Source: a virus. From it: a DNA stretch of 33,414 bases. The notes below the pieces were generated by a model. That model was not told the origin of the DNA. It made no database searches and was given only the letters and a program-made list of their open reading frames with translations. Made by a program: the position numbers and the translations under genes. The stretch is from positions 1 to 33,414 of the IMG/VR virus record IMGVR_UViG_3300033182_000613; one strand, written 5' to 3'. Within the stretch, counting starts at the first letter, position 1; each line of letters begins with the position of its first letter. Positions 17,349 to 31,441 of the stretch are shown here, piece after piece.

Positions 17349-19295
17349 ATGGCGGAGTTGCAAAGTACCATTATTAATGATACAGGTTACCTAGCATTAC
17401 CAGTAGGTACAACTGCTCAACGAGGTGCAGATCCCGGTGGTACACTTGTTTATTTTACTAGTGTAGGTACTACTAGCTGGACTGTTCCTGCAAACGTTAC
17501 AGCCGTTGAAGTCCTTGTTGTAGGAGGTGGCGGCGGCGGCGGCTCTGACATGGGCGGCGGCGGTGGCGGCGGAGGCGTTGTTTACGAAGGTGCTTATGAT
17601 GTAACTCCTGGTGAATCTATTACAGTAGTAGTAGGTGGAGGAGGCTCAGGAGCTCCTGCTGGTAGTAGTGGCCCTAGAGGATCTAACGGCGGCAACTCCT
17701 CTTTTGGAAATATTATAGCATATGGTGGCGGCGGTGGCGCATCTGACCACGACAGTTCAAGTTATCCTGCAGGTGACGGTGCAAGTGGCGGGGGCGCAAG
17801 TGGCGGGGGCCTACCTCCAAACGGTGGATCAAGTGGATTTTTAAGTGGCGGCTCTGGCGGATACGGCGGCGGATCTAGAGGACGATCAATATATCCCGGT
17901 CAAGGACACGACGGTTCTTGGGGTAGTGGTCACTGGTACCCGGGAGGTGGCGGCGGTGCCGGAACTGAAGGTAAGTCATATCCTATTCCTCACGGCGGTG
18001 ATGGCGTTGTTTCATACATTACAGGTGCTCCTATATACTGGGGCGGAGGTGGAGGCGGCTCTGGCTACTCTAGTACTGGTGGTAACGGTGGCCTTGGTGG
18101 AGGCGGCGGTGGCGCTGTAGGAACTACATACGGTGGACAAGGTTACAATAATGGATCCGGTGGCGGTGGCGGTGGTACTAACACATGGGCACAAACACCG
18201 GGCGGCGCTGGTGGAGCAAACACTGGTGGCGGTGGCGGCGGCGGTTCTCACTACAACTCTAATAACTACGGTGGTAACGGTGGTTCGGGTATTGTTATTG
18301 TAAAGTATAATACTACTGCTCCAGGTGCAGCACCAAATACAGGATCTATCAGAGTAAACTCTACTACAGGCCATGCAGAATATTTAAGTGCTGCAGGATT
18401 GTGGACTCCAATGGCAGTTCCGTTTAAAGTAAGAACTGTGATTAATACAGCATATATGATGGGCGGATACCAAAGCGGAAATGCGTGGAACAATGTGAAT
18501 AGATGTTTTGTATATACTGATACTACTATTAACCTAGGCGACGGATCTTTAGAACGTTCATTCAACTATCAAACTGCAAGTTGTGGCAGAGACATTGCGT
18601 ATGTATGGGGTGCAGGCAACGGCCACGTAGTAAGTTCAAACTACATTATTGGATTTAATATGCGTACTGATCAACAGTATAACGCAATGGTTAGTAGAAC
18701 CCTTTCTTATAACGGTATTAACAAAGGAAGTACCTTTAGAGAAACATATACTGCATGGATCACAGGCGGCGGCAGCAGCACTATTGACGAAGTTAACATG
18801 GTTACAGAAACTACAATAAGAACAATAGGTGGGTGGAGTTCAACGAATCAGTGGGGAATGAGCCACGAAAATGAAGGTTATTTCTTCTGGGAAAATGATT
18901 CAAGAATCTGGACGTTTGCTACTAGAACTGCAAGAGGATCCCCAAGCAGTCAACCTAGTAACCACCATCAGCAAAAATCAGTTCAATCTAAAATGAACTA
19001 TGGCTGGGCTGGTAACGAAGGTTCATACAGTGGTGGCTATAACCTGCGTAAAACAAACTTTGCTACACACCAAGCAAACGTTAGTACGCACAGTAAACCA
19101 CGTGGTAACTGTGGTGAAGAAAACTACACAATGGGACAAGACTGGCAGTATATGCTAGGTAACTATGATGGTTCTCAAAACAACGGTTCTTGGAAGTGGT
19201 ATTACTATACTGACAGTGGCGTAAACGTAGGTAGTACTACAGAACCCAAAGGAAAAGGCGGATCAAGTTCAGGCGCCTGTGCGTGGAGAGATTAA
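17349..19295 (+). CDS. glycine-rich tail fibre / adhesin
   Basis: The product has 648 residues. The N-terminal attachment module (MAELQSTIINDTGYLALPVG) is followed by 'TSWTVPANVTAVEVLVVGGG', the start of a glycine-rich phage adhesin domain. Residues about 57-315 are dominated by Gly runs separated by short polar loops, as in T-even gp38-type adhesins with polyglycine-II sandwiches. Then comes a second short fibre motif (GSIRVNSTTGHAEYL) and, from about 358, a kelch-like beta domain paralogous to most of the next protein. Both end in GEEN...GQDW...AxxWR. The Gly run makes a GC-rich island in AT-rich DNA. GAGG lies eight bases before the start. A receptor-binding tip is the likely role, by family analogy. 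Confidence 0.83.
   Translation: MAELQSTIINDTGYLALPVGTTAQRGADPGGTLVYFTSVGTTSWTVPANVTAVEVLVVGGGGGGGSDMGGGGGGGGVVYEGAYDVTPGESITVVVGGGGSGAPAGSSGPRGSNGGNSSFGNIIAYGGGGGASDHDSSSYPAGDGASGGGASGGGLPPNGGSSGFLSGGSGGYGGGSRGRSIYPGQGHDGSWGSGHWYPGGGGGAGTEGKSYPIPHGGDGVVSYITGAPIYWGGGGGGSGYSSTGGNGGLGGGGGGAVGTTYGGQGYNNGSGGGGGGTNTWAQTPGGAGGANTGGGGGGGSHYNSNNYGGNGGSGIVIVKYNTTAPGAAPNTGSIRVNSTTGHAEYLSAAGLWTPMAVPFKVRTVINTAYMMGGYQSGNAWNNVNRCFVYTDTTINLGDGSLERSFNYQTASCGRDIAYVWGAGNGHVVSSNYIIGFNMRTDQQYNAMVSRTLSYNGINKGSTFRETYTAWITGGGSSTIDEVNMVTETTIRTIGGWSSTNQWGMSHENEGYFFWENDSRIWTFATRTARGSPSSQPSNHHQQKSVQSKMNYGWAGNEGSYSGGYNLRKTNFATHQANVSTHSKPRGNCGEENYTMGQDWQYMLGNYDGSQNNGSWKWYYYTDSGVNVGSTTEPKGKGGSSSGACAWRD
17781..17810 (+). 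repeat. perfect 15-bp tandem duplication in the Gly-rich coding stretch
   Basis: GCAAGTGGCGGGGGC occurs twice head to tail, encoding ASGGG twice. It is in frame (15 bases), so a change in copy number alters loop length without a frameshift. This suggests recent slippage. Confidence 0.85.
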
Positions 19296-20341
19296 TGGCT
19301 AACTTAAAAAATACAAATATTAATGATACAGGTCACTTAACACTTCCAGGTGGCGAACCTGGAACTACTTCTGCAGGAACTATAAGATATAATATCACTG
19401 AAAATAGAGTTGAAATATATAATCCAAATACTGGTGGCGGACAATGGTCTAGTCAAGTATTGCCTTATTTGTCTAGACAAATTATTACTACGGGTTACTT
19501 ACATGGCGGATACGCATCTAGTGTTGTTTTTACAAATACTAACAGAACTACTTTTGCCACAGACACAACAGTAGACCTAACCGGTGCGAACCAGGCACAA
19601 GAGCGAGGACACAACTACAAATCGTGTTTGTGGAGTGGAACTACGAACTATACATTTGGCGGACAAGCAGGTTCTCACTGTGCCAGCTCTAGCGGTAATA
19701 TTGCATTTAACATGGTAACTGAACAAACACTAACTAGCGGTTATTCAAGAAACTTACCTTACTCTACAAATAATAATGCGTGTTTGCAACATGAAAATTT
19801 TAGAGGTTGGACAAGTATGGGCGGAACGTCAAACGTCTACGAATGGGACATGCAAACTGAAACACTCAATACGACTGCTATTACTTCTAACCCAAATGCT
19901 GGTGGATGGGGTACTAGTCATGAATTATATGGTGTATGGATTGGTTCTAGTGCAGGATATAGATTCTCATGGGCTACAAGAACTAACATTAACAGCAGAG
20001 GAACTGCTGTACAAGGTGACAAACATCAGCATTCATTAAGTTTCAAACACGCATACCATATTGCAGGACGTGAAAGCAATCCAAGTTCAAACTGGCGCGA
20101 AACAAATATGTATACAGATGCTACACAAGATGCAATTGGCAGCAAGCCAGCATATAGCGGAGAAGAAAATACAGTTACAGGACAGGACTGGGCGTATGCA
20201 CTAGGCTGGTACCAAGGTTCTCACGTTAATACATCATTTCGTTTTGTGTATGCTACAAGAGCAGGAACTACAACAGGTTCTAGCACACAACCAAAAGGTG
20301 TAGCAGGTCAAAGTTCAGCAACGATGTCATGGAGAGCATAA
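19295..20341 (+). CDS. tail fibre / adhesin with kelch-like beta domain, paralogous to the C-terminus of the preceding gene
   Basis: The product has 348 residues from ATG 19295, which overlaps the previous stop (TAATG). An in-frame GTG at 19283 exists but would bury 13 bases in the preceding gene and spoil the shared N-terminus (MANLKNTNINDTGHLTLPGG). After a short fibre motif (GTIRYNITENRVEIY), residues about 52-348 show repeated '(F/D)NM-x-TE(Q/T)' and 'GG' strands like kelch propellers. The final segment with HSLSFKHAYHIAG, GEENTVTGQDWAYALGWY and SSTQPKGVAG matches the end of the upstream Gly-rich protein. No transmembrane or catalytic features are seen. It is probably an alternative or accessory receptor-binding protein, inferred from context. 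Confidence 0.82.
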   Translation: MANLKNTNINDTGHLTLPGGEPGTTSAGTIRYNITENRVEIYNPNTGGGQWSSQVLPYLSRQIITTGYLHGGYASSVVFTNTNRTTFATDTTVDLTGANQAQERGHNYKSCLWSGTTNYTFGGQAGSHCASSSGNIAFNMVTEQTLTSGYSRNLPYSTNNNACLQHENFRGWTSMGGTSNVYEWDMQTETLNTTAITSNPNAGGWGTSHELYGVWIGSSAGYRFSWATRTNINSRGTAVQGDKHQHSLSFKHAYHIAGRESNPSSNWRETNMYTDATQDAIGSKPAYSGEENTVTGQDWAYALGWYQGSHVNTSFRFVYATRAGTTTGSSTQPKGVAGQSSATMSWRA

Positions 20342-20387: not shown

Positions 20388-21263
20388 ATGACAGATAAAC
20401 AAGATAGACTTATTCAGTATCATTCAGATCGTTTTAATAGCGATATTAATTCTGACGTAAGTATGCTCTCTGATCAAGAAAAAGAAATTGTTAAAAGAGC
20501 AATGAATAAAGAATGGACAAATCCAAAATATAAATTACGCTGGTTTGTTGGTCAATCTCAAATTACACCTTTTGCAAAAATGCGTCAATGGCTTCTTGAA
20601 ATTAAATCAAAGGAAGAATCTATTGAAAACATGGAATACGAAGTTGCTAAGACCGAAGTTGAATATGACAGATTTAAACGTATGAGAGATCAATCACATG
20701 ACGATCTAGATCGTAGACTTGCAGAAATTGAAATGTGGAATACAGAACGTATGCTTTACATGAGTAAACGTAGACTGCAAGATTGGTACCTAGAAAGACA
20801 GCACTTAATTGATTTACTAAATGAATTTATGGATTCAGATGAATCGTATCTACCAGACGGATCAGGCCGTACTTACATGGATATTCTTAACACCGAAGAA
20901 GAAGATGTTTATGAAGCAGAATACTGGACTAACAGGCTTGCAAAACAAGCAGCAACAGATATGTTATTCTATGGCAGAATAAATTCAGGTAACATGGATG
21001 CTATTTTACAAATGCCACCTGAGCAACAAGCAGAAACACTTGCATTAACTGTTAATTATAGTACTAAATTACAAAACTATCAACTACAGTTACAAGCACA
21101 AGCCGAAGAGAATTTAAAATTAGGAAGTAATGAAAATTACAAATCATTAACAAAGCCTAAAGAAGAAAGTACGCAAATGCATTCTCTTGAAAATTCTAAA
21201 ACGGATAACGAGATAAATACAAATATTGAAGAGGATTTATTAAAAGATGTATATTCTGTATGA
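20388..21263 (+). CDS. unrecognised charged protein with predicted coiled coil
   Basis: This 291-residue protein is rich in Glu, Lys, Gln and Met. Residues about 50-150 form long charged helices (KEESIENMEYEVAKTEVEYD, then DDLDRRLAEIEMWNTERM) with heptad-like spacing. The C-terminal third has Gln-rich helices (LQNYQLQLQAQAEENLKL) and ends in a disordered acidic tail. There is no signal peptide, membrane segment or known active site. The start has AAGGAG at 20375-20380. The gene follows the fibre array and overlaps the next gene by 17 bases. Such a protein could be a fibre-assembly chaperone or scaffold, but I do not recognise the family and that is a guess. Confidence 0.72.
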   Translation: MTDKQDRLIQYHSDRFNSDINSDVSMLSDQEKEIVKRAMNKEWTNPKYKLRWFVGQSQITPFAKMRQWLLEIKSKEESIENMEYEVAKTEVEYDRFKRMRDQSHDDLDRRLAEIEMWNTERMLYMSKRRLQDWYLERQHLIDLLNEFMDSDESYLPDGSGRTYMDILNTEEEDVYEAEYWTNRLAKQAATDMLFYGRINSGNMDAILQMPPEQQAETLALTVNYSTKLQNYQLQLQAQAEENLKLGSNENYKSLTKPKEESTQMHSLENSKTDNEINTNIEEDLLKDVYSV

Positions 21264-21846
21264 AACTTTGCCGAGCAATGATCCTAGGCTAACTACTAAC
21301 ATTCAGCACCGAGCAAATGCTTGGCATTATTCTATTGCTTATGTAAATAATGACTCTTTAGTAGAACACCCAATTAGTTGGCTTGATTATACAGAACTAA
21401 CTTCTGATGAAGCAGAATGTCATAGATTTATGAATGTGTTAGACGGAGAAATCCCAGTAATGATTAACAAAACTAATCCTGCTGACTTAGTTTCTCCCAC
21501 TAGCTACGGCGATAACGACTACGAAAAACAAATGTATCAATTAACAAAGTCAGATCTAAACAATACTGTTGCGTTAATGAAAAAGATAATGAAATTACAC
21601 GCAAAAAATCATAGTACAGATGAAACTGTAAGAAATAGACTTTATCAAGGTATTGATGCACTTAGCGAAATTACAGAAACTCAAATGTTTATGGCAACTT
21701 ATTTTGAATGGGAATGTGCGTACACTGCACTTCAAGATAAAATTCAAGAATTTCCAGTTAAGTGGTCTTGGGAAGAATTAAGACTTGATACTGAAAATGA
21801 TAAAGTTGTTATACAAACAACTGTTGACCCTGACAAAGACGTTTAA
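21247..21846 (+). CDS. unrecognised helical protein
   Basis: This 199-residue protein begins at an ATG inside the end of the previous gene (17-base overlap), which implies coupled translation. The N-terminal 60 residues look like a small mixed alpha/beta region (WHYSIAYVNNDSLVEHPISW); residues about 95-165 are helical (DLNNTVALMKKIMKLHAKNH and following). The tail (KVVIQTTVDPDKDV) is polar. No known motif is visible. It is the last gene before a strong terminator, so it closes the transcription unit that begins with the structural genes. Function unknown. Confidence 0.7.
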   Translation: MYILYETLPSNDPRLTTNIQHRANAWHYSIAYVNNDSLVEHPISWLDYTELTSDEAECHRFMNVLDGEIPVMINKTNPADLVSPTSYGDNDYEKQMYQLTKSDLNNTVALMKKIMKLHAKNHSTDETVRNRLYQGIDALSEITETQMFMATYFEWECAYTALQDKIQEFPVKWSWEELRLDTENDKVVIQTTVDPDKDV

Positions 21847-21855
21847 TCTTTTCAC

Positions 21856-21884
21856 TTTACTTTCTTTAAAAAAGATGCTATAAT
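21856..21884 (+). promoter_or_regulatory. sigma70-like promoter embedded in a terminator hairpin
   Basis: A perfect -10 box TATAAT (21879-21884) lies 17 bases after a -35-like TTTACT (21856-21861, 4 of 6 match to TTGACA). Transcription would start near 21890-21892, giving a leader of about 30 bases before the ATG at 21920. The -10 box sits in the left arm and loop of the terminator, so transcripts begun here would lack the left arm. TATAAT is not rare in AT-rich DNA, so this needs a 5'-end experiment. Confidence 0.42.
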
Positions 21885-21906
21885 AAGTAATTATAGCATC
21901 TTTTTT
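21868..21906 (+). terminator. rho-independent terminator, perfect 16-bp stem, likely bidirectional
   Basis: The left arm (21868-21883) and right arm (21891-21906) are exact reverse complements with a 7-base loop (TAAGTAA). The right arm ends in six T. The left arm begins with six A, so the structure would also work on the other strand. It follows the end of the gene at 21846 by 21 bases and ends 13 bases before the next start codon. Confidence 0.85.
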
Positions 21907-21919
21907 GTTGAGTGAACAA

Positions 21920-23596
21920 ATGAAAAAAATTTTTAGCGTACCATTAAACCCAAAACTAACTCCAGATCAATTTGTAGAATTTTATAATTTTCTTAATGAT
22001 TATAAAGAATATATTTACGACATATATTTTACAAGTCGTATACCACCTTTTATGCAAGACGCTATGGGTGATGTTTTTGTACTACAAGAAGATTATTCCT
22101 ATGCTATTGAGCAAGCATTGGTAATACAAGCTAATCTTAATATTCCTGTTAGCGCAACATTTAACAATATTTCTGTTCCTCCTACGCAGAAAAATTTAGA
22201 TTTGTTTATTAAAAACTTTAAACCTTTATATGATGCAGGCATACGTATTGCTACTATTCCGCACACGCATTGGATGGCTACAGGGCAAATCAAACGAGCA
22301 TTTCCAGAACTATACGTAAAGAATACTATTTTAAGAGATGTAAAAACCGCCGCAGAGGTTGTTAACCTAGCCAAAGCAGGATTTGATTATATCAATTTAG
22401 ATAGAGATTTAATGCGAGATAAAGATACACTTTTGCGTATTAAAACTGCTAAGGAGTGGATTAAGAAAAACTTAGGAAAAGAAATTAAAATAAGTTTATT
22501 AGCTAACGAGGGATGTTTAGGTAATTGTCCTATGATGGTCGAACATTTTGAATTTAATAACGCTAGAAGAGGCGAAGCTCCACAATACTTTAATGATCCT
22601 ATTAGTCGTGTAAGTTGTCCTAAATGGGAAGTTGACGATCCTAGTGTACATTTAAAAACAGCAAACATCCCGCCGTGGAAAGAAGACTGGGATATTTTTA
22701 TTAACAAATTAGGAATTGATGTATTTAAAATGCATGGAAGAGAAGCCCCTCCAAGATTGTTTGAAAGTATTGATATTATTAAACGTTATGCTGCTAATAA
22801 TGATATCTTAATAGACCAGTTTAACAGTTATTTAGAGGATAATAATTTAAAAGAAAAACCTATCTTTGCATGGAGAGAAAAAATACGTAATTGTAAATTT
22901 GACTGCTGGGAATGTCATTTCTGCGACGATATTTACAAAGTTAAGTCTAAAATTGATCACACTGATTTAGTCAAACATGTAGCACAAAGTATCTTAGATT
23001 CAGGTATACCTACTACACAAAATAATATTCCTGGACTAACTAGTTCTAGAGTAAAAACGTTATTAAACAATATTGCAAAAGGTGTAGACACATATATGGA
23101 AATTGGATGTGCGTTAGGGTCAACATTCTTTGCAACGTTAGATAAAAACACATTGGTTGCTTATGCTGTTGATAACTGGAACGAAAATATTCAACCAGAT
23201 CGAACAGACTTACGTACTTTGCCAGAAAACACATATTTTAGATTTAAACAAAATTTAGAAAATTATAAAGGAAATTCTAAAATTGTTGTATTAAATAACG
23301 ATTTGTTTGAAACAAATCTAAAGGACCTCAACAAAAAAATTAATATGTGGTTTTATGATGGTCCTCATGATGCAAAGACAACAAAAGAAGCTGTAGAATT
23401 TTATGCTTCGTCATTCTCTAAAGAAGCAGTACTGATATTTGATGACGCAAATTGGAAAGGTGTAGTTGACGGCGCTAGAGAAGGAATTAACGCTGCTGGA
23501 TTAACAGCTAGTTATGAAAAAATAATATTAAACGACCAAGAAGATCCAAATGGATGGTGGAACGGGCTATATATTGTTATTGTGAATAAAGATTAA
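21920..23596 (+). CDS. U32-type TIM-barrel protein fused to a SAM-dependent methyltransferase
   Basis: The product has 558 residues from ATG 21920; an in-frame TTG at 21905 lies in the terminator's T run and is unlikely. Residues 1-340 resemble peptidase-U32-family barrels: NEGCLGNCPMMVEH (C199, C203), SCPKW (C233), and DVFKMHGRE near 270, matching the family's FKxEGR signature. A Cys cluster C325-x3-C329-x2-C332-x2-C335 follows, consistent with an Fe-S or Zn site. Residues 391-558 form a class I methyltransferase of the Methyltransf_24 type: YMEIGCALGST (SAM loop), AVDNW, DGPHD, FDDANW. Known U32 relatives (UbiU/V, TrhP, RlhA) perform oxygen-independent hydroxylation with an Fe-S cluster, so hydroxylation followed by methylation is a reasonable hypothesis. 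The substrate is unknown. The gene leads the cargo block and sits two bases before the halogenase. Confidence 0.75.
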   Translation: MKKIFSVPLNPKLTPDQFVEFYNFLNDYKEYIYDIYFTSRIPPFMQDAMGDVFVLQEDYSYAIEQALVIQANLNIPVSATFNNISVPPTQKNLDLFIKNFKPLYDAGIRIATIPHTHWMATGQIKRAFPELYVKNTILRDVKTAAEVVNLAKAGFDYINLDRDLMRDKDTLLRIKTAKEWIKKNLGKEIKISLLANEGCLGNCPMMVEHFEFNNARRGEAPQYFNDPISRVSCPKWEVDDPSVHLKTANIPPWKEDWDIFINKLGIDVFKMHGREAPPRLFESIDIIKRYAANNDILIDQFNSYLEDNNLKEKPIFAWREKIRNCKFDCWECHFCDDIYKVKSKIDHTDLVKHVAQSILDSGIPTTQNNIPGLTSSRVKTLLNNIAKGVDTYMEIGCALGSTFFATLDKNTLVAYAVDNWNENIQPDRTDLRTLPENTYFRFKQNLENYKGNSKIVVLNNDLFETNLKDLNKKINMWFYDGPHDAKTTKEAVEFYASSFSKEAVLIFDDANWKGVVDGAREGINAAGLTASYEKIILNDQEDPNGWWNGLYIVIVNKD

Positions 23597-23597
23597 A

Positions 23598-25124
23598 ATG
23601 AAAAAAGTAAAAAATATAATTATATTTGGCGGCGGAACAAGCGGATGGCTAACTGCTGCATACATGACTAAAAATTTAGCATTTCCAATTGACATTACAA
23701 TAATTGAAGATGTAAATGCAGGCCCAATTGGTGTTGGCGAAGGTACTCAGCCCTTGACTGCTAAATTTTTATATGAGTGCGGAATAGAAGCAAAACACTG
23801 GATGAAACCAAGTAATGCTGCATTTAAGTACGGCGTTGAATTAACAGGATGGAATGAAGAACCTTATTTTGTTGACAACGACGATGTTAAAAATTATATG
23901 ATAGCTAGTGCAATGTTTACTAGTGATTATTTTATAGACAAACCTTACAAAGAGTTTGCGGACTGGTATCCTGCTTATAGATTAGCTAAATCAAATACAA
24001 GCCCAAAGCTAACTGTAGATATTGATCAAAATTTTGGTTCGGGTCCTGACGGTTACGGTGCAGTACATTTTAGTGCTTACGATATTATCACAACAATAAA
24101 AACTATTCTTGGCGATAAAGTTACACATATCAATACTAAGATAGTCAATGTTGAAACAGATAACAACGGAATCACTAGACTGATTGACGAACAGAAAGTT
24201 AGTTACACGGCAGATTTATACATTGATTGTTCTGGGTTTAAGAGTTTGCTGTTAGAGAAGACATTAGGAGCAGAGTTTGTTTCATATGTTGATAATGGAT
24301 GGTTGCTAAATGATAGTGCTGTTGCTATACAAACACAATATACAGACCCAGAAAAAGAGTGCCACCCGTACACAAAGTCAACTACAATGAATGCAGGTTG
24401 GCGCTGGACTATTCCTACATACTCACGTATAGGCAATGGATATGTATATAGTTCAAAATATTTAACACCAGAACAAGCAGAACAAGAGCTTAGAGAAGCA
24501 TTAAATGAATGGAATGCGCCAGCAAAACATTTAAAAATGCGTTGTGGCACCCATAAAGAAATTGCTTTAAAAAATGTTTGTGCAGTAGGGCTAAGTGCCG
24601 GATTTGTAGAACCTTTAGAAGCTACTGGTATAACGTTTACTACGGCTGTAGCTAAATCAATTACTGATCTTTTAAACCTTAATAACGGAATATGGGAAGA
24701 TAATGTTACTGATATTATCAACCAAGGTTGGTATGAAATGTGTGTTGAAATTTTAACTTTTGTTTGGAGCCATTATTATTTTAGCACACGAAATGATACA
24801 GAATATTGGCAAGCAATTAGAAAACAAGAGATTACTGATTTACCAACCGATGCACAATTCATGCTAAACCAGTATTATCCTCAACTCAAACCATTCATAT
24901 TTTTTAGTCCGCAAAGTATGTTTAGTTCACAACAATGGTTTAGTATGTTACATGCAGGCGGCGCATATAAAGGTGTAAATGGTACTAGATTATCTGCAAA
25001 AGAAAAGGAATATGCAGAAATATTTTTAGACGTCGGTACTACTAGAATTAATAGTATTATTGAAAAATTTCCAAATCATTATGATTTTTTAAAAGGGTGG
25101 TATGACGGATGGACGGTAGAGTAG
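23598..25124 (+). CDS. flavin-dependent tryptophan-halogenase-like protein
   Basis: This 508-residue protein has the family's full marks. The FAD loop GGGTSGWLTAAYM lies at 11-23 and GVGEGTQP at 45-52. AAFKYG contains K77, aligned with the catalytic Lys of PrnA-type halogenases. The halogenase signature WRWTIP lies at 268-273, and VEPLEATGI at 337-345. Length is normal for the family. Such enzymes use FADH2, oxygen and halide to make HOCl/HOBr-type halogenating species. A flavin reductase is needed but none is seen here, so the host would have to provide it. It starts two bases after the U32-methyltransferase stop and overlaps the next oxygenase by 16 bases. The substrate need not be tryptophan; many relatives act on other indoles or peptides. 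Confidence 0.88.
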   Translation: MKKVKNIIIFGGGTSGWLTAAYMTKNLAFPIDITIIEDVNAGPIGVGEGTQPLTAKFLYECGIEAKHWMKPSNAAFKYGVELTGWNEEPYFVDNDDVKNYMIASAMFTSDYFIDKPYKEFADWYPAYRLAKSNTSPKLTVDIDQNFGSGPDGYGAVHFSAYDIITTIKTILGDKVTHINTKIVNVETDNNGITRLIDEQKVSYTADLYIDCSGFKSLLLEKTLGAEFVSYVDNGWLLNDSAVAIQTQYTDPEKECHPYTKSTTMNAGWRWTIPTYSRIGNGYVYSSKYLTPEQAEQELREALNEWNAPAKHLKMRCGTHKEIALKNVCAVGLSAGFVEPLEATGITFTTAVAKSITDLLNLNNGIWEDNVTDIINQGWYEMCVEILTFVWSHYYFSTRNDTEYWQAIRKQEITDLPTDAQFMLNQYYPQLKPFIFFSPQSMFSSQQWFSMLHAGGAYKGVNGTRLSAKEKEYAEIFLDVGTTRINSIIEKFPNHYDFLKGWYDGWTVE

Positions 25125-25690
25125 CGTTATATCATTCTGATATTTTTATTAGAGACAATCTTGGAACGTCAGAACAACTTAAAGATTTGTACGACCAAAT
25201 ACAAGAAGCTAAAACATCTAATAAAGAAGAGATAAGTCGCAGTAATGACGGGTGTTTTAGAACTACTAAAAAGTATAAAAACGACGATTGGTTAATGGCC
25301 GCTGTTCAAGACATGACAAAGAAAGCAGCAGAATATTATTTTGAAACAGACGAATCATTTTTGCAACATGTACCAGATAAAAAAATTAAAATAAATTATT
25401 GGACTAATGTAAACCAACCTGGTGCAAGTAATGTTATCCACAACCACGAAAAAGATTCATTTGCAGCAGTGTTTTATTTGCAAGCAGAAGGAACCGGAGA
25501 TATATCATTTGTAAATCCTGCAAATTTATTATCTAACTGTAATCCTGCTAGTCCATTTACACGTTGTTTAAATTTTTCTCCAGAAGATAATCAATTAATT
25601 CTATGGCCAGCTTGGGTTCCACATGAAGTTTATCCAAATCCGTCGGACAAAGAACGAATTAACATAGTTTTTAGTATACAACTTACATAA
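25109..25690 (+). CDS. 2OG-Fe(II) oxygenase (2OG-FeII_Oxy_5-like)
   Basis: This 193-residue protein starts inside the halogenase end (16-base overlap). The double-stranded beta-helix core is visible: INYWTNVNQPGASNVIHNHE with H111 and H113, then AAVFYLQ, and the distal WPAWVPHEVYPN (H172) followed by RINIVFSI (R183, the likely 2-oxoglutarate anchor). This pattern, with the WxNxNxPG lead-in and HxH, matches the putative 2OG-Fe(II) oxygenase family PF13759, common in marine phages and bacteria. The likely reaction is hydroxylation of a side chain or small molecule. Tight coupling to the halogenase suggests a shared pathway. The substrate is unknown. Confidence 0.85.
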   Translation: MDGRVALYHSDIFIRDNLGTSEQLKDLYDQIQEAKTSNKEEISRSNDGCFRTTKKYKNDDWLMAAVQDMTKKAAEYYFETDESFLQHVPDKKIKINYWTNVNQPGASNVIHNHEKDSFAAVFYLQAEGTGDISFVNPANLLSNCNPASPFTRCLNFSPEDNQLILWPAWVPHEVYPNPSDKERINIVFSIQLT

Positions 25691-25691
25691 T

Positions 25692-26432
25692 ATGAAAAGT
25701 ATAAAAATAGAATTTTTTTCAAAGGTAAAGGGATTAGCGGAAACTTTCCCTGTTATACCCGCTAATCAATATCGTCCAAAATGGATGAGTATATGTAAAG
25801 ACGACTTTATTAAAACTAAAGATACTTTACAACCAAGCCATTTACAAATGTGTCCCGGAATCTTTGAAATTTTCAAACACGGGTACATGGTTCCTATGTG
25901 GCATGATGCTGTAATTAAAACAACTTACGATAGAGAAGACTTTGATTTTGTATTACCAAGCACATATCTTAAAGAGTTAAGAGGTGGAGATCCAATTGGA
26001 ACGCACCCTTACAATATTACAAAATTTTTACCAAAAAGACATTACAGTAAACACGCTATTGTAAAAATGAATACTCCTTGGAATGTTATTGCACCGCCTG
26101 GTGTAAAGTTCTTAGTGTTGCCAATACCTTATCCAGACACACACGAACTAGAAAGTGCAATTGGTATACTAGATCCCGCCGTAAGTACAGAAATTAATTT
26201 TCAATGTTATTTGAACATAAACCAAGGTGAAATTATGGTAAAAGCAGGAACGCCTATGATGTATCTTATTCCTCTTACAGAGCAACAATACGAATTAGTT
26301 GTAAGAGACATGACTAAAAAAGATGCTGCTTGGTTAGAAAAGCGTAATTATCTAAATATTTTTGGATTTAAATTAAACAAACAAAAAATTAAAGAATCGT
26401 TTTATAGACATTTTTACGGAGTTAAAAAATGA
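25692..26432 (+). CDS. beta-rich protein, possibly DUF6065-like, copy A
   Basis: This 246-residue protein is paralogous to the one at 26838-27602. Shared landmarks, A then B: 'PVIPANQYRPKW' / 'PIIPASKQQWKW'; 'CPGIFEIFKHGYMVPMWHD' / 'CPGILGITKTGWVQRAWQD'; 'NTPWNVIAPPGVKFLVLPIP' / 'QSPWMVYIPKGYYLMSMPLP'; 'GILDP' / 'GLLDP'; 'AGTPMMYLIP' / 'AGTPLCQYIL'. This layout resembles a phage domain of unknown function (I think DUF6065, with a cupin-like core), but the name is uncertain. No catalytic metal triad is evident. It begins two bases after the oxygenase and overlaps the next gene by four bases (ATGA). Confidence 0.75.
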   Translation: MKSIKIEFFSKVKGLAETFPVIPANQYRPKWMSICKDDFIKTKDTLQPSHLQMCPGIFEIFKHGYMVPMWHDAVIKTTYDREDFDFVLPSTYLKELRGGDPIGTHPYNITKFLPKRHYSKHAIVKMNTPWNVIAPPGVKFLVLPIPYPDTHELESAIGILDPAVSTEINFQCYLNINQGEIMVKAGTPMMYLIPLTEQQYELVVRDMTKKDAAWLEKRNYLNIFGFKLNKQKIKESFYRHFYGVKK

Positions 26433-26863
26433 TACACGAATTATTTACTAATGATTTTGCGTTTTATCGACAAGAAATTAGAGAAGCAAAAGATGATTAT
26501 ACAAAACATAAGATAGATAAAGATAGACGAAAAGCACACAAATGGATTTCTGAATTTTTAAAAAAAGCTGAAATTATTCTAACTTATAAAAACGGAAATG
26601 ACACTATTACTACTATTGCGACCCTTAATGTAAAAACAGATTTAGAGTTACCTCAGACTCCAATGACACATGTTACTATAAACGGCAAACAAGTTTTAGA
26701 AGATCAGTATTTAAGATTTTATAGAATGCCTGAAGTTTTACCAGATTGCATTCATGTAGATCAAGTATTATGTTTTTTTGTTAGTAATCAACATGTAAGT
26801 GAAGTATCAGGAAGAATAAACACTCCAGGAAAAAAATATGTTAAAGAATCTGTTGAGTCATAA
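26429..26863 (+). CDS. unrecognised protein between the two paralogues
   Basis: This 144-residue protein is linked to the upstream gene by ATGA and to the downstream one by a 26-base overlap. The N-terminal 50 residues are a highly charged helix (RQEIREAKDDYTKHKIDKDR); the rest is predicted beta (AEIILTYKNGND, TTIATLNVKTDLEL, THVTINGKQV). There is no known motif. Its position inside a tightly packed block suggests it works with the neighbouring oxygenases or the paralogue pair; no biochemical role can be read from the sequence. Confidence 0.7.
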   Translation: MIHELFTNDFAFYRQEIREAKDDYTKHKIDKDRRKAHKWISEFLKKAEIILTYKNGNDTITTIATLNVKTDLELPQTPMTHVTINGKQVLEDQYLRFYRMPEVLPDCIHVDQVLCFFVSNQHVSEVSGRINTPGKKYVKESVES

Positions 26864-27602
26864 AAAAGAAAAATTAGAATTTGTATCTTTGTTACCAGAA
26901 GTAGCACAAATTATGCCTATCATTCCTGCATCTAAACAACAGTGGAAATGGGCTAAAGATGCCTTAGAAAACTACAAAAAAGTTAAAGACGAGAATACTA
27001 CGAAACGTTTTACTCATGTTGCTAGATGTCCTGGGATATTAGGTATTACAAAAACAGGATGGGTTCAGCGTGCATGGCAAGATATTGTTATTAAAACAAA
27101 TGGGGACGGAGTTTCTTACGAATGGCAAACACCTGTAAATCAAAATATAATAGATAGCGACCATACATGGCGTTGGGACTATGTAAGTCATCATAACGAA
27201 GAACTTTTTGGAATATATAACCCTGATAAAAATTGTTTAAAGACTGTTATAAAAATCCAAAGTCCTTGGATGGTGTATATTCCTAAAGGGTATTATCTAA
27301 TGAGCATGCCCCTGCCATACCCTGATAGACATGACTGGACGGCAGCAACAGGATTGCTCGACCCAGATTACGGTCCTAACTTTTTAAATGTACAAATGTT
27401 TTGGCATAATCTTAACGGAGAAACTTTTATTCCTGCAGGTACACCTTTGTGCCAATATATATTAATAAAGAAACACGAAGTTGAAGCAACAGTAAGAGAA
27501 TATGAAAAGAAAGATATTGAAAATTTACGTCTAAGGGCTACTGCGATAGATTGCAAGTATCAAAGCAATTATACAATGTTAAAAGACTTAAAATGGAAAT
27601 AA
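26838..27602 (+). CDS. beta-rich protein, possibly DUF6065-like, copy B
   Basis: This 254-residue paralogue of the protein at 25692-26432 keeps the same order of motifs: PIIPASKQQWKW, RCPGILGITKTGW, IKIQSPWMVYIPKGYYLMSM, GLLDPDYGP, NGETFIPAGTPLCQY. Both also share a helical C-terminus starting '(V/T)VR(D/E)(M/Y)xKKD'. The copies are strongly diverged, so the duplication is old. The start overlaps the previous gene by 26 bases and the stop lies two bases before the next gene. Function unknown. Retention of both copies beside two Fe(II) oxygenases and a halogenase hints at a role as scaffold or substrate-binding partner, which is speculation. Confidence 0.75.
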   Translation: MLKNLLSHKKEKLEFVSLLPEVAQIMPIIPASKQQWKWAKDALENYKKVKDENTTKRFTHVARCPGILGITKTGWVQRAWQDIVIKTNGDGVSYEWQTPVNQNIIDSDHTWRWDYVSHHNEELFGIYNPDKNCLKTVIKIQSPWMVYIPKGYYLMSMPLPYPDRHDWTAATGLLDPDYGPNFLNVQMFWHNLNGETFIPAGTPLCQYILIKKHEVEATVREYEKKDIENLRLRATAIDCKYQSNYTMLKDLKWK

Positions 27603-27603
27603 C

Positions 27604-28182
27604 ATGGAAGATTTCATTTATATAAAATATAACGCACTAAACAAACAAGAGTGTGCCGACGTCATTGATTACTTCGAACGTATGAGGTCATTAGGACTTG
27701 TTTTTGATAGACAAGAATTAAAGGACGGTATGCCTCATCATAAAAAAGACAAAGCGTGTTTTATGTTTGAACCTGATGCTATAACATTTGACAGAACACA
27801 TCCTATGGCTATGATGTTAATTGATCGCATAAAAGAAGCCTATATGGATTATATTAAAGAGTATAGTATACTTGCAGAAAGTGAACAACATGGCATTTAT
27901 AATATTAAAATTCAAAAGACCCAAATAGGTGGCGGTTTCCATAAATGGCACTATGAATCTAATGGAAGACTGTCAAGTAATAGATTTCTTGTATACACTT
28001 TATACCTAAATGATGTAAAGGTTGGCGGAGAAACGGAGTTTTTATACCAACATCGTAGAGTAAATGCTTCTGAAGGTACACTAGTATTATTTCCAGCAAC
28101 ATACACACATACCCATAGAGGAAATCCTCCTTTAAGCGGTGATAAGTATATTGCAACAGGATGGATTGAATATTTTGAATAA
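27604..28182 (+). CDS. prolyl-4-hydroxylase-like 2OG-Fe(II) oxygenase
   Basis: This 192-residue protein has the complete Fe(II)/2-oxoglutarate set: H116-x-E118 in GGFHKWHYESNGR (Glu replaces the more usual Asp, as in related phage enzymes), then 'LVYTLYLNDVKVGGETEF', the distal FPATYTHTHRG (H169 or H171), and K181 in GDKYIATGW as the 2-oxoglutarate-binding Lys. This is the prolyl-4-hydroxylase alpha-subunit-like family well known from marine phages. Proteins or peptides are plausible substrates. It differs in family from the oxygenase at 25109-25690, so the block has two independent hydroxylases. It starts two bases after the preceding stop and overlaps the J-domain gene. Confidence 0.88.
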   Translation: MEDFIYIKYNALNKQECADVIDYFERMRSLGLVFDRQELKDGMPHHKKDKACFMFEPDAITFDRTHPMAMMLIDRIKEAYMDYIKEYSILAESEQHGIYNIKIQKTQIGGGFHKWHYESNGRLSSNRFLVYTLYLNDVKVGGETEFLYQHRRVNASEGTLVLFPATYTHTHRGNPPLSGDKYIATGWIEYFE

Positions 28183-28438
28183 AGACCCGTACATAATTTT
28201 AGGAATTCAACGTACAGCAACTATAAACGAGATTAAACGCCGTTATAGGGTGCTTGCTATGAAAGAACATCCTGATAAAGGTGGCGACATAAAAAAATTC
28301 TTAGAAATAAAAGAAGCATACGAAATACTAACAAACACAAAGTCTAAAGAAACAAAAAGTTTTGATCAAGGAACCGACACATTTTTTAAAAAAATGTTTG
28401 GAAGCAAGTTTGGCCCGTGGAGTAATAAATGGCTGTAA
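28175..28438 (+). CDS. small J-domain (DnaJ-type) co-chaperone
   Basis: The J-domain runs from DPYIILGIQRTATINEIKRR through AMKEHPDKGG (the HPD tripeptide that stimulates DnaK) to KEAYEILTN, essentially the whole protein. A short tail ends in Gly/Phe residues (FFKKMFGSKFGPWSNKW). There is no zinc-finger or C-terminal client-binding region, so this is a minimal J-protein that probably recruits the host DnaK. The start is uncertain: TTG 28175 gives 87 residues and an 8-base overlap with the oxygenase; GTG 28139 would give 99 residues. No ATG is available before the domain. Role in phage assembly or in folding the cargo enzymes is inferred. Confidence 0.85.
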   Translation: MNKDPYIILGIQRTATINEIKRRYRVLAMKEHPDKGGDIKKFLEIKEAYEILTNTKSKETKSFDQGTDTFFKKMFGSKFGPWSNKWL

Positions 28439-28641
28439 TAAAAGTTGAGATATGTCCATATCTTCAAAGAGAAAGTGCTAGACAAAACAAAGCACACGAA
28501 AATGTTTTAAATTGGCAGCACCGTTACAGATGGATCAAACACGTTCTCTCTCATGATAAAAGAGAAATTCTTTTCCATGAAGAAAAGTACTTTGAAGAAT
28601 TTAAGAAAACTTGGCCTCATTGGTATAAGCGCATTTATTAG
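28429..28641 (+). CDS. small basic protein of unknown function
   Basis: This 70-residue protein starts inside the end of the J-domain gene (10-base overlap). It is rich in His, Trp, Tyr, Arg and Lys (NWQHRYRWIKHVLSHDKREI, then FKKTWPHWYKRIY) and looks like two or three basic helices. There is no known motif. It could bind nucleic acid or an acidic partner. It is the last gene of the cargo block, and a late-promoter-like element begins one base after its stop codon. Coding status rests on the tight overlap and clean length rather than on homology. Confidence 0.6.
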   Translation: MAVIKVEICPYLQRESARQNKAHENVLNWQHRYRWIKHVLSHDKREILFHEEKYFEEFKKTWPHWYKRIY

Positions 28642-28649
28642 CATAAATA
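28642..28649 (+). promoter_or_regulatory. T4-type late promoter-like octamer CATAAATA
   Basis: CATAAATA (7 of 8 to TATAAATA; followed by C as in many T4-like late sites) lies in the 32-base gap between the cargo block and the virion gene at 28674, 24 bases before its ATG. A GAGG-type ribosome binding site (28664-28667) follows. The position before a structural gene makes it the best late-promoter candidate in the window. Confidence 0.5.
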
Positions 28650-28673: not shown

Positions 28674-29879
28674 ATGTCTGCTAATCCTGTTGTTAATAAC
28701 ATACGTATTATACCTAGAACTCAAGATTTCTTAGAAAGAAATACAGGTTCTAGCGGAGAATTATATTTCAATAAAGACAGTAACAGTCTAAGAGTCTACA
28801 ACGGAAGCCTCAGAGGCGGCCATGAAGTTATTTCTGAATATAATCTAACCCAGTATATTGCGCAAAAAGAAATTGCTACTGTAAAATACGATGTTACGGT
28901 AGAAAATCAAGGAAGTGGTAATAAGTATGTTCTAAACGGTACTTATTATACTGATTTAAGTTTTGTAGTAGGTTATACTTACATTTTTGATCAAACTGAC
29001 CTTGACAATTTATATTATCCTAACGCTGAAGGAACTGTGTATAATGAACATCCTTTACATTTTTCTAGCGACGATCAAGATGGGAAGTTGAACGGCGGCA
29101 CTACGTACTTAACTAATGTCATTTATTTGCTAGACGACATTCAAGTTTCAGAAACCGAATACAATCAAAGATTCAATAGAGCCACTACTAGACAGGTACA
29201 ACTAACCGTAACTAAAGATACTCCAACTACCCTGTATTATTGGTGTGCTAATCATGTAGGTATGGGCAGAACTATTACTGTTGGCTTACCTGGTTCTGGT
29301 AATTCAGGTGGTGCGCAGGTGGATGTTTCAGATACTGCACCTGCTAGTCCAACAGAAGGAAATATATGGTTCAACAGCACTAACGGTAGAATATATGTAT
29401 ACGTTGCAGACGGCGATAGTAGTCAATGGGTACAACCTAGCGTACCAGTGTTTAGCGGAGACTATAACGATTTATCTAATGCACCAACTAGTATTTTAGA
29501 CTTTAGTATAACTGATGGTTCAGCTGGACAAATATTACAAACTGACGGCGCTGGCAATTTCTCATTTGTTGCCGGCACAACATATGACCAAACATTAAAC
29601 ACTTCTGACGATGTAGAATTTAATACAATAAGTGCAACTGAATTTATTAACACAGGTGTAGGTACTCCAGAAATTGATAGTGCGTCAACATTAACTTTGA
29701 CCGCAGCAGATGGAGTAATTGTAAATGGATCTCAATTTAGGTTACCTAGTTTTACAACAACTCAAAGAGGTAATCTTGTTCCAATCAACGGTGATTTGAT
29801 ATACAATACAACAACTAATAAGGTGCAAGCGTATCAAAATGGTGCTTGGATAAACCTTGATGACGGAAGTGCAGCATAA
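28674..29879 (+). CDS. virion structural protein with cupredoxin-like domain and fibre-type C-terminus
   Basis: The product has 401 residues. The N-terminal segment (TQDFLERNTGSSGELYFN, then NSLRVYNG) is a fibre attachment motif. Residues about 70-205 form a cupredoxin-like domain closely related to that of giant protein 1: H126 in NEHPLHFSS and C191-x2-H194-x2-M197 in TLYYWCANHVGMG, a ligand set like type 1 copper proteins. The C-terminal half shows fibre repeats (SGDYNDLSNAPTSILDFS, QILQTDGAGNFSF) and ends with QRGNLVPINGDLIYNTTTNK. A late-type promoter precedes it, and its stop overlaps the protease start (TAATG). Copper binding is untested; the His/Cys/His/Met spacing is seen directly. 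Confidence 0.82.
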   Translation: MSANPVVNNIRIIPRTQDFLERNTGSSGELYFNKDSNSLRVYNGSLRGGHEVISEYNLTQYIAQKEIATVKYDVTVENQGSGNKYVLNGTYYTDLSFVVGYTYIFDQTDLDNLYYPNAEGTVYNEHPLHFSSDDQDGKLNGGTTYLTNVIYLLDDIQVSETEYNQRFNRATTRQVQLTVTKDTPTTLYYWCANHVGMGRTITVGLPGSGNSGGAQVDVSDTAPASPTEGNIWFNSTNGRIYVYVADGDSSQWVQPSVPVFSGDYNDLSNAPTSILDFSITDGSAGQILQTDGAGNFSFVAGTTYDQTLNTSDDVEFNTISATEFINTGVGTPEIDSASTLTLTAADGVIVNGSQFRLPSFTTTQRGNLVPINGDLIYNTTTNKVQAYQNGAWINLDDGSAA

Positions 29880-31441
29880 TGAGCGAAAAAGAATACGCAG
29901 TAATTGTTAAGAAGGGTGTAGACATAGAAGAATTTGATGCTGAAATGGCAGCATCGCAAGGTCACGGTCCTGTTCCAAATCGCTCAGTAGATGTTGCTAA
30001 TCCACGTTTAGGTTCTGGTAGAATGACTCACTGGATGATTACTGACGAAGAAGCAGAATCTTTGCGTAGTGATCCTAGAGTTGAAGCAGTTGAAATTCCT
30101 CCGTACTTACGCGACGATATACACATAGGTCTAAGAGCAAGTCAAACAGGAAATTTTTATAGAGGTACGTTAGGGGCGTCTACAGAAGTTAATTGGGGGT
30201 TAAAACGTTCTATTGCTGAAACAAACACATACTTTAATCAACCAACTATAGCAGGTAATTACGAGTATGCACTAGACGGATCAGGTGTTGACATTGTAAT
30301 TCAAGATAGCGGTTTACAAGTTGATCATCCTGACTTTAATGACTATGTCGGTAATAGCCGAGTTCAACAAATAAACTGGTATACAGAAAGCGGATTACCT
30401 GGCACACAATCTGCTAACCATTATAGAGATTATGAAGGTCACGGAACACATTGCGCAGGGATAGCAGCAGGTCTTACCTATGGCTGGGCAAAAGGTGCAA
30501 GAATATATTCGCAAAAATTAAGCGGGTTAGAAGGCCCCGGTGACAGCGGAACAGGTATATCAGTAGCTGATGCGTTTGACTCTATTAGATTATGGCACAT
30601 TGCTAAAGGAGGAACAAGACCAACAATAGTTAATATGAGCTGGGGATACTTTAGCTCTTCTACAGTTGATCCTACTTCTGGTGAATATAGAGGTATAAGT
30701 TGGAATTATGGCGATCCAAATTATTCAACCATTACTGAACTTTGGGCTAATGCAGGAATTGTCCCACCATTTGACGTTGACGGTACAAGTGTAAGATACT
30801 TTACAAATACAAATGCTTTTGCTAATGCAGAAGTTGAAGATATGATTGATGCTGGAATACATGTATGTATAGCGGCAGGAAACGATTATTATAAACTAGA
30901 CGTATCAGGCGGCCTAGATTATGATAATTTTGCAGTATTTTCAGGAACACAACAATTTTATCATCGTTCAGGATCTCCATATAGCAGCAGAGCGTTTTAC
31001 GTAGGTAATATTGACTCAACTGTTCAAAACGACAGCGGAACTTATAGAGATAAAACAGCAAGTTCAAGTAATAAAGGTCCTGCTGTTAATATATGGGCTC
31101 CTGGAACTAATATAATGAGTACTACTAGCACTGTTAATGACGGCTATACAACTGTAAATTATCCCAATAACACAAGCTATAAAATTACAAGTATTAGCGG
31201 AACGTCAATGGCATCTCCACAAGTAGCAGGAGTGTGCGCTCTATATTTACAAGCAACACCTGATATTTCAACAGACGATCTGCTGACAAAAATAATAAAC
31301 GATTCTAAAAGTGTCATTTATGATACGGGAGTAAATAACGATTACGCAAGCTACCAAACGTCAATTATGGGTGCTCCAAATAGAATGTTATATTCAAAAT
31401 ATGGAAGACAACCAGTAATTTATAAGAATGTGAGTTTATAA
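29879..31441 (+). CDS. subtilisin-like serine protease (S8 family)
   Basis: This 520-residue protein has the full catalytic set: D143 in DIVIQDSGLQVDHPDF, H188 in YEGHGTHCAG, the oxyanion N335 in CIAAGNDY and S443 in SGTSMASPQVAG. Residues 1-80 resemble an I9-type propeptide: MSEKEYAVIVKKGVD at the start and SDPRVEAVEIPP at the cleavage-zone end. There is no signal peptide, so it acts in the host cytoplasm or inside the particle. It sits between two structural genes and is coupled to the upstream one by TAATG. Processing of a virion protein or degradation of host surface protein are both possible. This differs from the usual T4 prohead protease (gp21, U9 family). Confidence 0.9.
   Translation: MSEKEYAVIVKKGVDIEEFDAEMAASQGHGPVPNRSVDVANPRLGSGRMTHWMITDEEAESLRSDPRVEAVEIPPYLRDDIHIGLRASQTGNFYRGTLGASTEVNWGLKRSIAETNTYFNQPTIAGNYEYALDGSGVDIVIQDSGLQVDHPDFNDYVGNSRVQQINWYTESGLPGTQSANHYRDYEGHGTHCAGIAAGLTYGWAKGARIYSQKLSGLEGPGDSGTGISVADAFDSIRLWHIAKGGTRPTIVNMSWGYFSSSTVDPTSGEYRGISWNYGDPNYSTITELWANAGIVPPFDVDGTSVRYFTNTNAFANAEVEDMIDAGIHVCIAAGNDYYKLDVSGGLDYDNFAVFSGTQQFYHRSGSPYSSRAFYVGNIDSTVQNDSGTYRDKTASSSNKGPAVNIWAPGTNIMSTTSTVNDGYTTVNYPNNTSYKITSISGTSMASPQVAGVCALYLQATPDISTDDLLTKIINDSKSVIYDTGVNNDYASYQTSIMGAPNRMLYSKYGRQPVIYKNVSL

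Follow-up and report, generated by a model that had tools for sequence, protein, structure and literature searches.

The window analysed here is the whole of a 33,414-base virus record, IMGVR_UViG_3300033182_000613 (possibly a fragment), and the subject is a block of nine genes at positions 21920-28641 that encodes a predicted flavin-dependent halogenase, two oxygenases of the 2-oxoglutarate (2OG) type and several putative partner proteins. The nine intact open reading frames (ORFs) all read in the + direction and either leave a gap of 1 nt or overlap by 4 to 44 nt, in agreement with the eight or nine packed genes that a sequence-only reading of this DNA had described. The block sits within the tail-fibre gene region, directly behind the fibre genes. 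Its assignments, derived from Pfam, PHROGs and NCBIfam profiles, are collected in Table 1 together with the adjacent fibre genes and signals. The GC content of the block is 33%, versus 38-39% in its flanks. Because the dN/dS ratios of the enzyme genes fall between 0.10 and 0.29 against their best relatives, with dS near saturation, nothing in these genes suggests decay.

Table 1 Genes and signals of the block and of the adjacent fibre region (aa, amino acids; E, expectation value).
Feature	Position	Strand	Evidence or remark
Gly-rich tail-fibre-like protein, candidate substrate	17349..19295	+	PF21722 E 2.5e-17
phrog_1417 fibre-like protein, candidate substrate	19283..20341	+	E 8e-27
phrog_1409 protein of fibre module	20388..21263	+	E 4e-41; order conserved
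199-aa protein of fibre module	21247..21846	+	Conserved order
Terminator-like hairpin between fibre module and block	21868..21907	+	15-bp stem, flanking A and T runs
MT, U32-like TIM-barrel/Cys-rich domain + class I methyltransferase	21920..23596	+	phrog_1458 (T4-GC 354) E 2e-171
Flavin-dependent halogenase, 508 aa	23598..25124	+	Trp_halogenase PF04820 E 2.3e-85, residues 6-455
2OG-type oxygenase, 2OG-FeII_Oxy_5 PF13759/TIGR02466, HxH...H...R	25109..25690	+	PF13759 E 8e-15
phrog_7084 paralogue 1 (DUF6065-like)	25692..26432	+	E 1.4e-41
144-aa ORF	26429..26863	+	Position kept, fast evolving; 70 matches in surveyed loci
phrog_7084 paralogue 2 (DUF6065-like, dUTPase-like fold)	26838..27602	+	E 6e-48
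Prolyl-4-hydroxylase-like 2OG oxygenase, 2OG-FeII_Oxy_3 PF13640	27604..28182	+	E 7e-11
Minimal J-protein with HPD motif	28139..28438	+	PF00226 E 2e-16; HPD conserved
70-aa ORF	28429..28641	+	Kept in window lineage; 38 matches in surveyed loci
Late-promoter-like CATAAATA before next structural gene	28642..28649	+	Motif ATAAATA

The second gene of the block encodes what is predicted to be a tryptophan-type halogenase. GGGTSG, WRWTIP and K77 are all intact. Of 80 relatives, 100% have K77, W268 and P273, which together with the PF04820 match bears out the earlier assignment. In a FastTree phylogeny with local support values, the window lineage forms its own clade of 35 rows (local support 100) and the VirX1 lineage forms another; the window enzyme is ~30% identical to the VirX1-type halogenase of the block in cyanophage Syn10. 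VirX1 itself (531 aa, PDB 6QGM) is identified, by length and position, as the second halogenase of that block. A third lineage at a fibre locus is represented by the freshwater cyanophage S-SRM01 (L288 6001-7458), whose lone, very divergent halogenase has a tail-fibre gene region on one side and an adhesin-tip gene (gp37-gp38) on the other. Because the window and VirX1 halogenases form separate clades, halogenases probably became associated with fibre loci on more than one occasion, and judging from the tree a single recent inheritance does not account for this association. In two unannotated gut records with halogenase matches, no partner family was found.

The two oxygenases come from different families, as had been proposed. 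The enzyme encoded at 25109-25690 scores 55.5 bits against PF13759 (curated cut-off 27) and 56.6 bits against TIGR02466 (E 3e-15), just under the curated cut-off of 62.5. The canonical HxD/E...H metal triad is not present in this protein; H111-x-H113...H172 stands in its place and is found, with R183, in 80/80 relatives. The HxH arrangement is possibly a three-histidine iron site. The nearest solved relatives of the second oxygenase (27604-28182) are bacterial prolyl-4-hydroxylases (PDB 3itq/5hv0, E 2e-6), and its histidine ligands H116 and H171 are kept in 100% and 94% of relatives, respectively. This clear 2OG oxygenase is also matched by phrog_2297 and phrog_274, both named DNA endonuclease, and several cyanophage "endonuclease V" genes stand inside oxygenase runs; the DNA endonuclease labels on these 2OG oxygenase genes are a probable misannotation.

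The two related proteins that had been noted as a paralogue pair are both members of phrog_7084. The AlphaFold model of paralogue 2 has a pLDDT of 90.5, and among solved structures dUTPases come closest to it, over part of the length (Foldseek E 5e-4, TMt 0.5-0.6). The motif-3/4-like stretch G-(I/L)-L-D-P...N-x-Q...A-G-T-P-L-x-Q-x-I shows a weak alignment to a member of the dUTPase family (E 0.04), and D175 is present in 57/67 relatives. DUF6065 (PF19541) matches 3/67 of these relatives, with a best E of 2e-6, and neither of the window proteins. The family is thus described here as DUF6065-like, with a modelled dUTPase-like fold. The neighbours within 2.5 kb of 64 distinct phage phrog_7084 genes comprise a halogenase and a 2OG gene in 41 cases, a 2OG gene but no halogenase in 13, neither in 10 and a halogenase alone in 0. 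Because of these neighbour counts in phages and of DUF6065 fusions in bacteria, described below, phrog_7084 is likely a partner of 2OG/JmjC oxygenases. A solitary distant relative of phrog_7084 in Halorubrum virus HRTV-11 (L007 6917-7804) adjoins thymidylate synthase, with DNA polymerase B nearby.

The remaining ORFs of the block are small. The minimal J-protein claimed earlier holds, given its PF00226 match and conserved HPD motif, and its real start probably lies ~13 codons past the listed GTG because homologues lack the first residues. The 144-aa ORF has a dN/dS of 0.56.

The first gene of the block differs in its distribution from those that follow. Its product carries a Methyltransf_24 match (E 1e-7) C-terminal to a TIM-barrel-like domain without a Pfam assignment, and a model built from 39 relatives (pLDDT 86) resembles class I methyltransferases. 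The modelled N-terminal domain resembles the U32 protein Mk0906 (5d88; Foldseek TMt 0.69), and seven cysteines (C204, C208, C238, C330, C334, C337 and C340) are invariant in the 39 relatives. No Peptidase_U32 match is among the Pfam families listed for these 39 members, and for this reason the U32 label denotes a resemblance of the modelled fold rather than sequence membership; of the U32-methyltransferase fusion proposed previously, the methyltransferase stands, a U32-like fold is suggested by the model, and a U32 sequence match is not borne out. The gene probably starts at the ATG at 21920, the listed TTG at 21905 falling inside the hairpin. It is part of the fibre module T4-GC 351-354 and is found in 123 cultured cyanophage records. 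In the two cyanophage fusion loci examined it comes after the T4-GC 351-353 fibre-module genes with no halogenase there; the fusion gene is therefore assigned to the fibre module, to which the halogenase, 2OG and phrog_7084 genes are attached as an accessory block. The modules of P-HM2, Syn19 and S-RIM2 share with the window, in unchanged order, the fibre-like, phrog_1409-type, 199-aa-type and MT genes but differ in having no halogenase or phrog_7084 gene at the loci examined.

Two scans of viral contigs yielded 160 loci, comprising only the best-scoring ones and chosen by similarity to window genes. Anchoring on the fusion gene gave 69 distinct loci, 67 of them with enough downstream sequence, in which the fusion gene is followed by a halogenase (61 loci), phrog_7084 (52 loci) and a 2OG gene (60 loci). 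The 6/67 loci without a halogenase lack the phrog_7084 and 2OG genes as well. Relatives keep the order fibre, phrog_1409, 199-aa protein, fusion, halogenase, 2OG and phrog_7084. Scattered or pseudogenised genes in relatives, which the sequence-only reading had named beforehand as speaking against a single pathway, were not seen; the order is conserved and the genes are intact. A cyanobacterial host for the window lineage was also considered and rejected, psbA not being found in ten relatives of up to 245 kb (possibly fragments), and the host is probably not a marine picocyanobacterium.

Cultured cyanophages provide a second setting. In Syn10, S-RIM44, S-CREM1, P-TIM40 and Sf-FP1, two or three Gly_rich_2 fibres and a 164-aa-type protein are followed by one or two halogenases, then by phrog_7084 and, with many oxygenases among them, by 2OG, DUF6445-like and JmjC_2 genes in that order, and further records place a halogenase and oxygenases behind the same Gly_rich_2 fibres. 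Records of this fibre family in cultured cyanophages contain a halogenase in 20/20 cases and a JmjC gene in 19, and phrog_7084-bearing cyanophage records contain a halogenase in 14/14. The Syn9/Syn10 (VirX1) block of the Kyanoviridae therefore resembles the window in that halogenase, phrog_7084 and 2OG oxygenases lie directly behind Gly_rich_2 fibres. In contrast to the window, it has no U32/methyltransferase fusion and no J-protein, and it includes JmjC_2, DUF6445-like and 73-90-aa proteins and often two halogenases. The 73-90-aa protein, with its motif NPYGITxIDF (L002 8359-8580 and relatives), occurs in 35 loci, every one with a halogenase. The S-SSM6a/S-SSM7 cluster (PMC7824862), in a T4-like jumbo cyanophage, also combines a halogenase with 2OG and cupin genes, but it differs by its carbamoyltransferases, sugar genes and neck-gene neighbourhood, and synthesis of a metabolite or decoration of the capsule has been proposed for it (PMC7824862).

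The interpretation put forward here, with a probability that falls just short of even, is that the block would serve as a tailoring kit for distal tail-fibre/adhesin proteins of the phage itself, whose genes lie immediately upstream; it would modify these proteins post-translationally. It builds on the gene content, the intactness and order of the genes, their repeated placement at fibre loci and the DUF6065 fusions. That the fibre is the target, which of its residues are changed, in what sequence the enzymes act and what the helpers do are inferred, in a scheme such as this: the 2OG-type oxygenases would hydroxylate fibre side chains, the halogenase would halogenate aromatic residues (Trp/Tyr) of the fibre, and the phrog_7084 proteins and the J-protein may hold or present the substrate. 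The U32-like/methyltransferase fusion protein, as an older member of the fibre module, may contribute another oxygen or a methyl group. The phage would probably gain through a change in how its fibres bind receptors or in how stable they are. Prolyl-4-hydroxylases, which the second oxygenase resembles, act on proteins, and this is counted in favour of fibre tailoring. The earlier suggestion that the substrate might be a virion protein encoded next door has become the best-supported reading, as two halogenase clades and that of S-SRM01 occur at fibre loci, although the substrate is still deduced.

The Trp content of the fibre C-terminal domain is 2.96% in halogenase-positive loci (n=54) vs 1.84% in halogenase-negative ones (n=8), with p 0.002; this comparison was one of several made post hoc, ignores phylogeny and includes only 8 halogenase-negative sequences. 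Tyr does not differ between the two groups of fibres, nor does Trp in three neighbouring proteins. The higher fibre Trp in halogenase-positive loci is thus only suggestive of a fibre substrate. In the virion protein table printed in the main text on S-SZBM1, the upstream genes 51 and 52 appear, and 46, 48, 49 and 50 do not (PMC9146016), so that the fibres go unsampled in it; their absence is compatible with fibre modification, low abundance or few tryptic sites.

Besides the limits of the Trp comparison, several observations count against fibre tailoring. The sample of relatives is biased toward close kin, and hence the counts are too. The two main fibre contexts have no fibre family in common, and the glycine-rich fibre domain was rejected as an obligate partner in the window lineage, where many halogenase-positive relatives have ordinary-glycine fibres. 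Halogenases of P-SSM2, S-PM2, Syn1, S-MbCM6, S-B64, HTVC008M and S-SSM7 lie away from fibres. The genomic context in HRTV-11, together with the dUTPase-like fold, hints at a nucleotide-related origin of phrog_7084. VirX1, described as active and iodinating, takes many small aromatics in vitro (PMC8407142). The idea of a single coupled pathway stands in part: order and intactness are conserved, but the fibre module of the fusion gene often occurs without a halogenase, the phage records listed for the fusion gene and those listed for the halogenase do not overlap, the Syn10-type block is without the fusion gene, 13 of the 64 phrog_7084 genes have a 2OG gene but no halogenase beside them, and many cyanophage halogenases sit away from fibres.

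Fibre tailoring is preferred over four other explanations. The main rival, though an unlikely one, is a small pathway whose product, made during infection, would be a small molecule or a sugar/peptide compound that is halogenated, hydroxylated and perhaps methylated, the fibre location being incidental; such a metabolite or glycan would serve as a signal, an antibiotic or a decoration of the host surface. The tryptophan-type halogenase and the substrate range of VirX1 agree with this, as do the proposal made for the S-SSM6a halogenase/2OG/cupin/carbamoyltransferase cluster, the position of this other cluster in S-SSM7 near neck genes with sugar genes, and the protection from antibiotics put forward by older authors (PMC2984593). 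It leaves the repeated placement at fibre loci unexplained, however; no assembly-line, adenylation, carrier or sugar-synthesis domain is among the Pfam matches of the block, and the prolyl-4-hydroxylase-like enzyme, as well as JmjC_2 in the Syn10-type block, is typical of protein hydroxylation. Quite improbable is a recombination hotspot, that is, independent auxiliary genes gathered in a hypervariable fibre region rather than a pathway. The lower GC content of the block and the differing gene sets of the lineages would fit such a history, and fibre regions count as metaviromic islands with frequent Fe(II) oxygenases (PMC3909814), but the order is held over wide divergence with dN/dS of 0.1-0.3, the six halogenase-negative fusion loci lack the whole set, and some of these families occur as fusions in bacteria.

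A ribosomally made, modified phage peptide is more improbable still. Here the substrate would be encoded in the block itself, as the 70-aa, the 144-aa or, in Syn10-type blocks, the 73-90-aa protein. The 70-aa ORF is conserved and rich in W, Y and H but is missing from many halogenase-positive relatives, and the 73-90-aa protein, despite its constant company of halogenases, has no conserved Trp and appears acidic and helical. Neither leader-binding or maturation domains nor precursor/leader-processing genes are among the Pfam matches of the block, though an unrecognised precursor may exist. Least probable of the four is a modification of nucleotides, phage DNA or RNA, in which the dUTPase-fold, 2OG, halogenase and U32-like proteins would act on bases. 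The dUTPase-like fold of phrog_7084 and the thymidylate synthase beside its relative in the haloarchaeal virus speak for it, and some U32 proteins hydroxylate RNA bases; against it, no oxygenase of the TET/JBP or AlkB type was detected, the 2OG families of the block being P4H-like and TIGR02466, and the context is that of a fibre locus.

Fibre tailoring may have a cellular parallel. In an alphaproteobacterial sample, DUF6065 was found above the cut-off in 23/190 genomes, and three single-ORF fusions (L262 1471-3165, L265 574-2220 and L264 694-2340) join it to Cupin_8/JmjC (two cases) or SapC (one case), which connects families without an assigned function to oxygenases of the 2OG type. The nearest proteobacterial halogenases of the sample lie mostly just behind proteins of ~900-1000 aa, and the two of these that were tested are both TonB-dependent receptors. 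Two other proteobacterial halogenase loci contain a Cupin_8/JmjC gene and a DUF6445 gene, respectively, and this DUF6445 gene is also matched by the phage family profile CK263. A shared presence of DUF6065 and halogenases in bacterial genomes was considered and rejected, with 1 weak match in 24 halogenase-bearing genomes. The proteobacterial loci resemble the window in placing Trp_halogenase beside a surface receptor, in some cases with Cupin_8/JmjC or DUF6445, with DUF6065 fused elsewhere; they differ in being cellular, in having a receptor in place of a fibre and in the near absence of DUF6065 from the halogenase-bearing genomes tested. Taken with the DUF6065 fusions, these loci suggest, from a small sample, a single kit found repeatedly beside surface proteins. 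The wider proposal, that the phage kit halogenates, hydroxylates and perhaps methylates its own receptor-binding fibres and that a related bacterial kit (halogenase, JmjC/Cupin_8, DUF6065/SapC and DUF6445) acts on TonB-dependent receptors, is tentative and is held with distinctly less confidence than fibre tailoring.

The 2OG and halogenase gene classes of cyanophages have been explained earlier by DNA repair, 2OG/NtcA signalling and antibiotic protection (PMC2984593, PMC3037559, PMC9964418), and Fe(II) oxygenases have been counted among the host-recognition genes of metaviromic islands with no mechanism given (PMC3909814). The literature searched contained no proposal of halogenated or hydroxylated tail fibres, nothing relevant on virion hydroxylation, DUF6065 or halogenase-TonB-SapC links, and no natural substrate for viral halogenases such as VirX1. 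Enzymatic decoration of a phage's own host-recognition fibres would thus be new. The repeated physical link to tail-fibre genes offers a concrete, testable substrate for viral halogenases. If fibre tailoring is correct, receptor binding would be diversified through modification by enzymes in addition to changes of sequence, host-recognition chemistry would extend past the 20 amino acids, and DUF6065, SapC, DUF6445, Cupin_8 and the halogenases behind bacterial outer-membrane receptors would come under a shared hypothesis.

The transcription signals that had been claimed on both sides of the block fared unequally. On the left the hairpin exists but is not conserved among relatives; as a border signal it was rejected, stems of 8 bp or longer being present there in 6/80 relatives vs a background of 19/500. 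On the right a late promoter is plausible through ATAAATA at 28643, which precedes the next gene by 31 nt, although the exact T4 late promoter TATAAATA is absent (0 in the window vs 5.6 expected). ATAAATA occurs at four sites in the window (6688, 15134, 21213 and 28643), on the + strand only and mostly ~30 nt before genes, and is possibly this phage's variant of the late promoter.

Of the two candidate substrates, the protein encoded at 17349-19295 has a C-terminal domain in common with the product of the next gene (E 1e-42), the phrog_1417 protein, whose fibre family is found just ahead of the fusion gene in almost every relative. Genes further upstream encode, besides these two fibre-like proteins, an S74-chaperoned fibre and a LamG-like protein. 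Two very long fibre-region proteins (717-6668 and 6716-15211), the first of which matches tail-fibre families, carry 5-6 repeats of carbohydrate-binding module 5/12 (CBM5/12) apiece. Downstream, the block is followed by a baseplate/fibre-like protein and then, among fibre/baseplate genes, by a subtilase-family protease (29879-31441) that is retained in many relatives.

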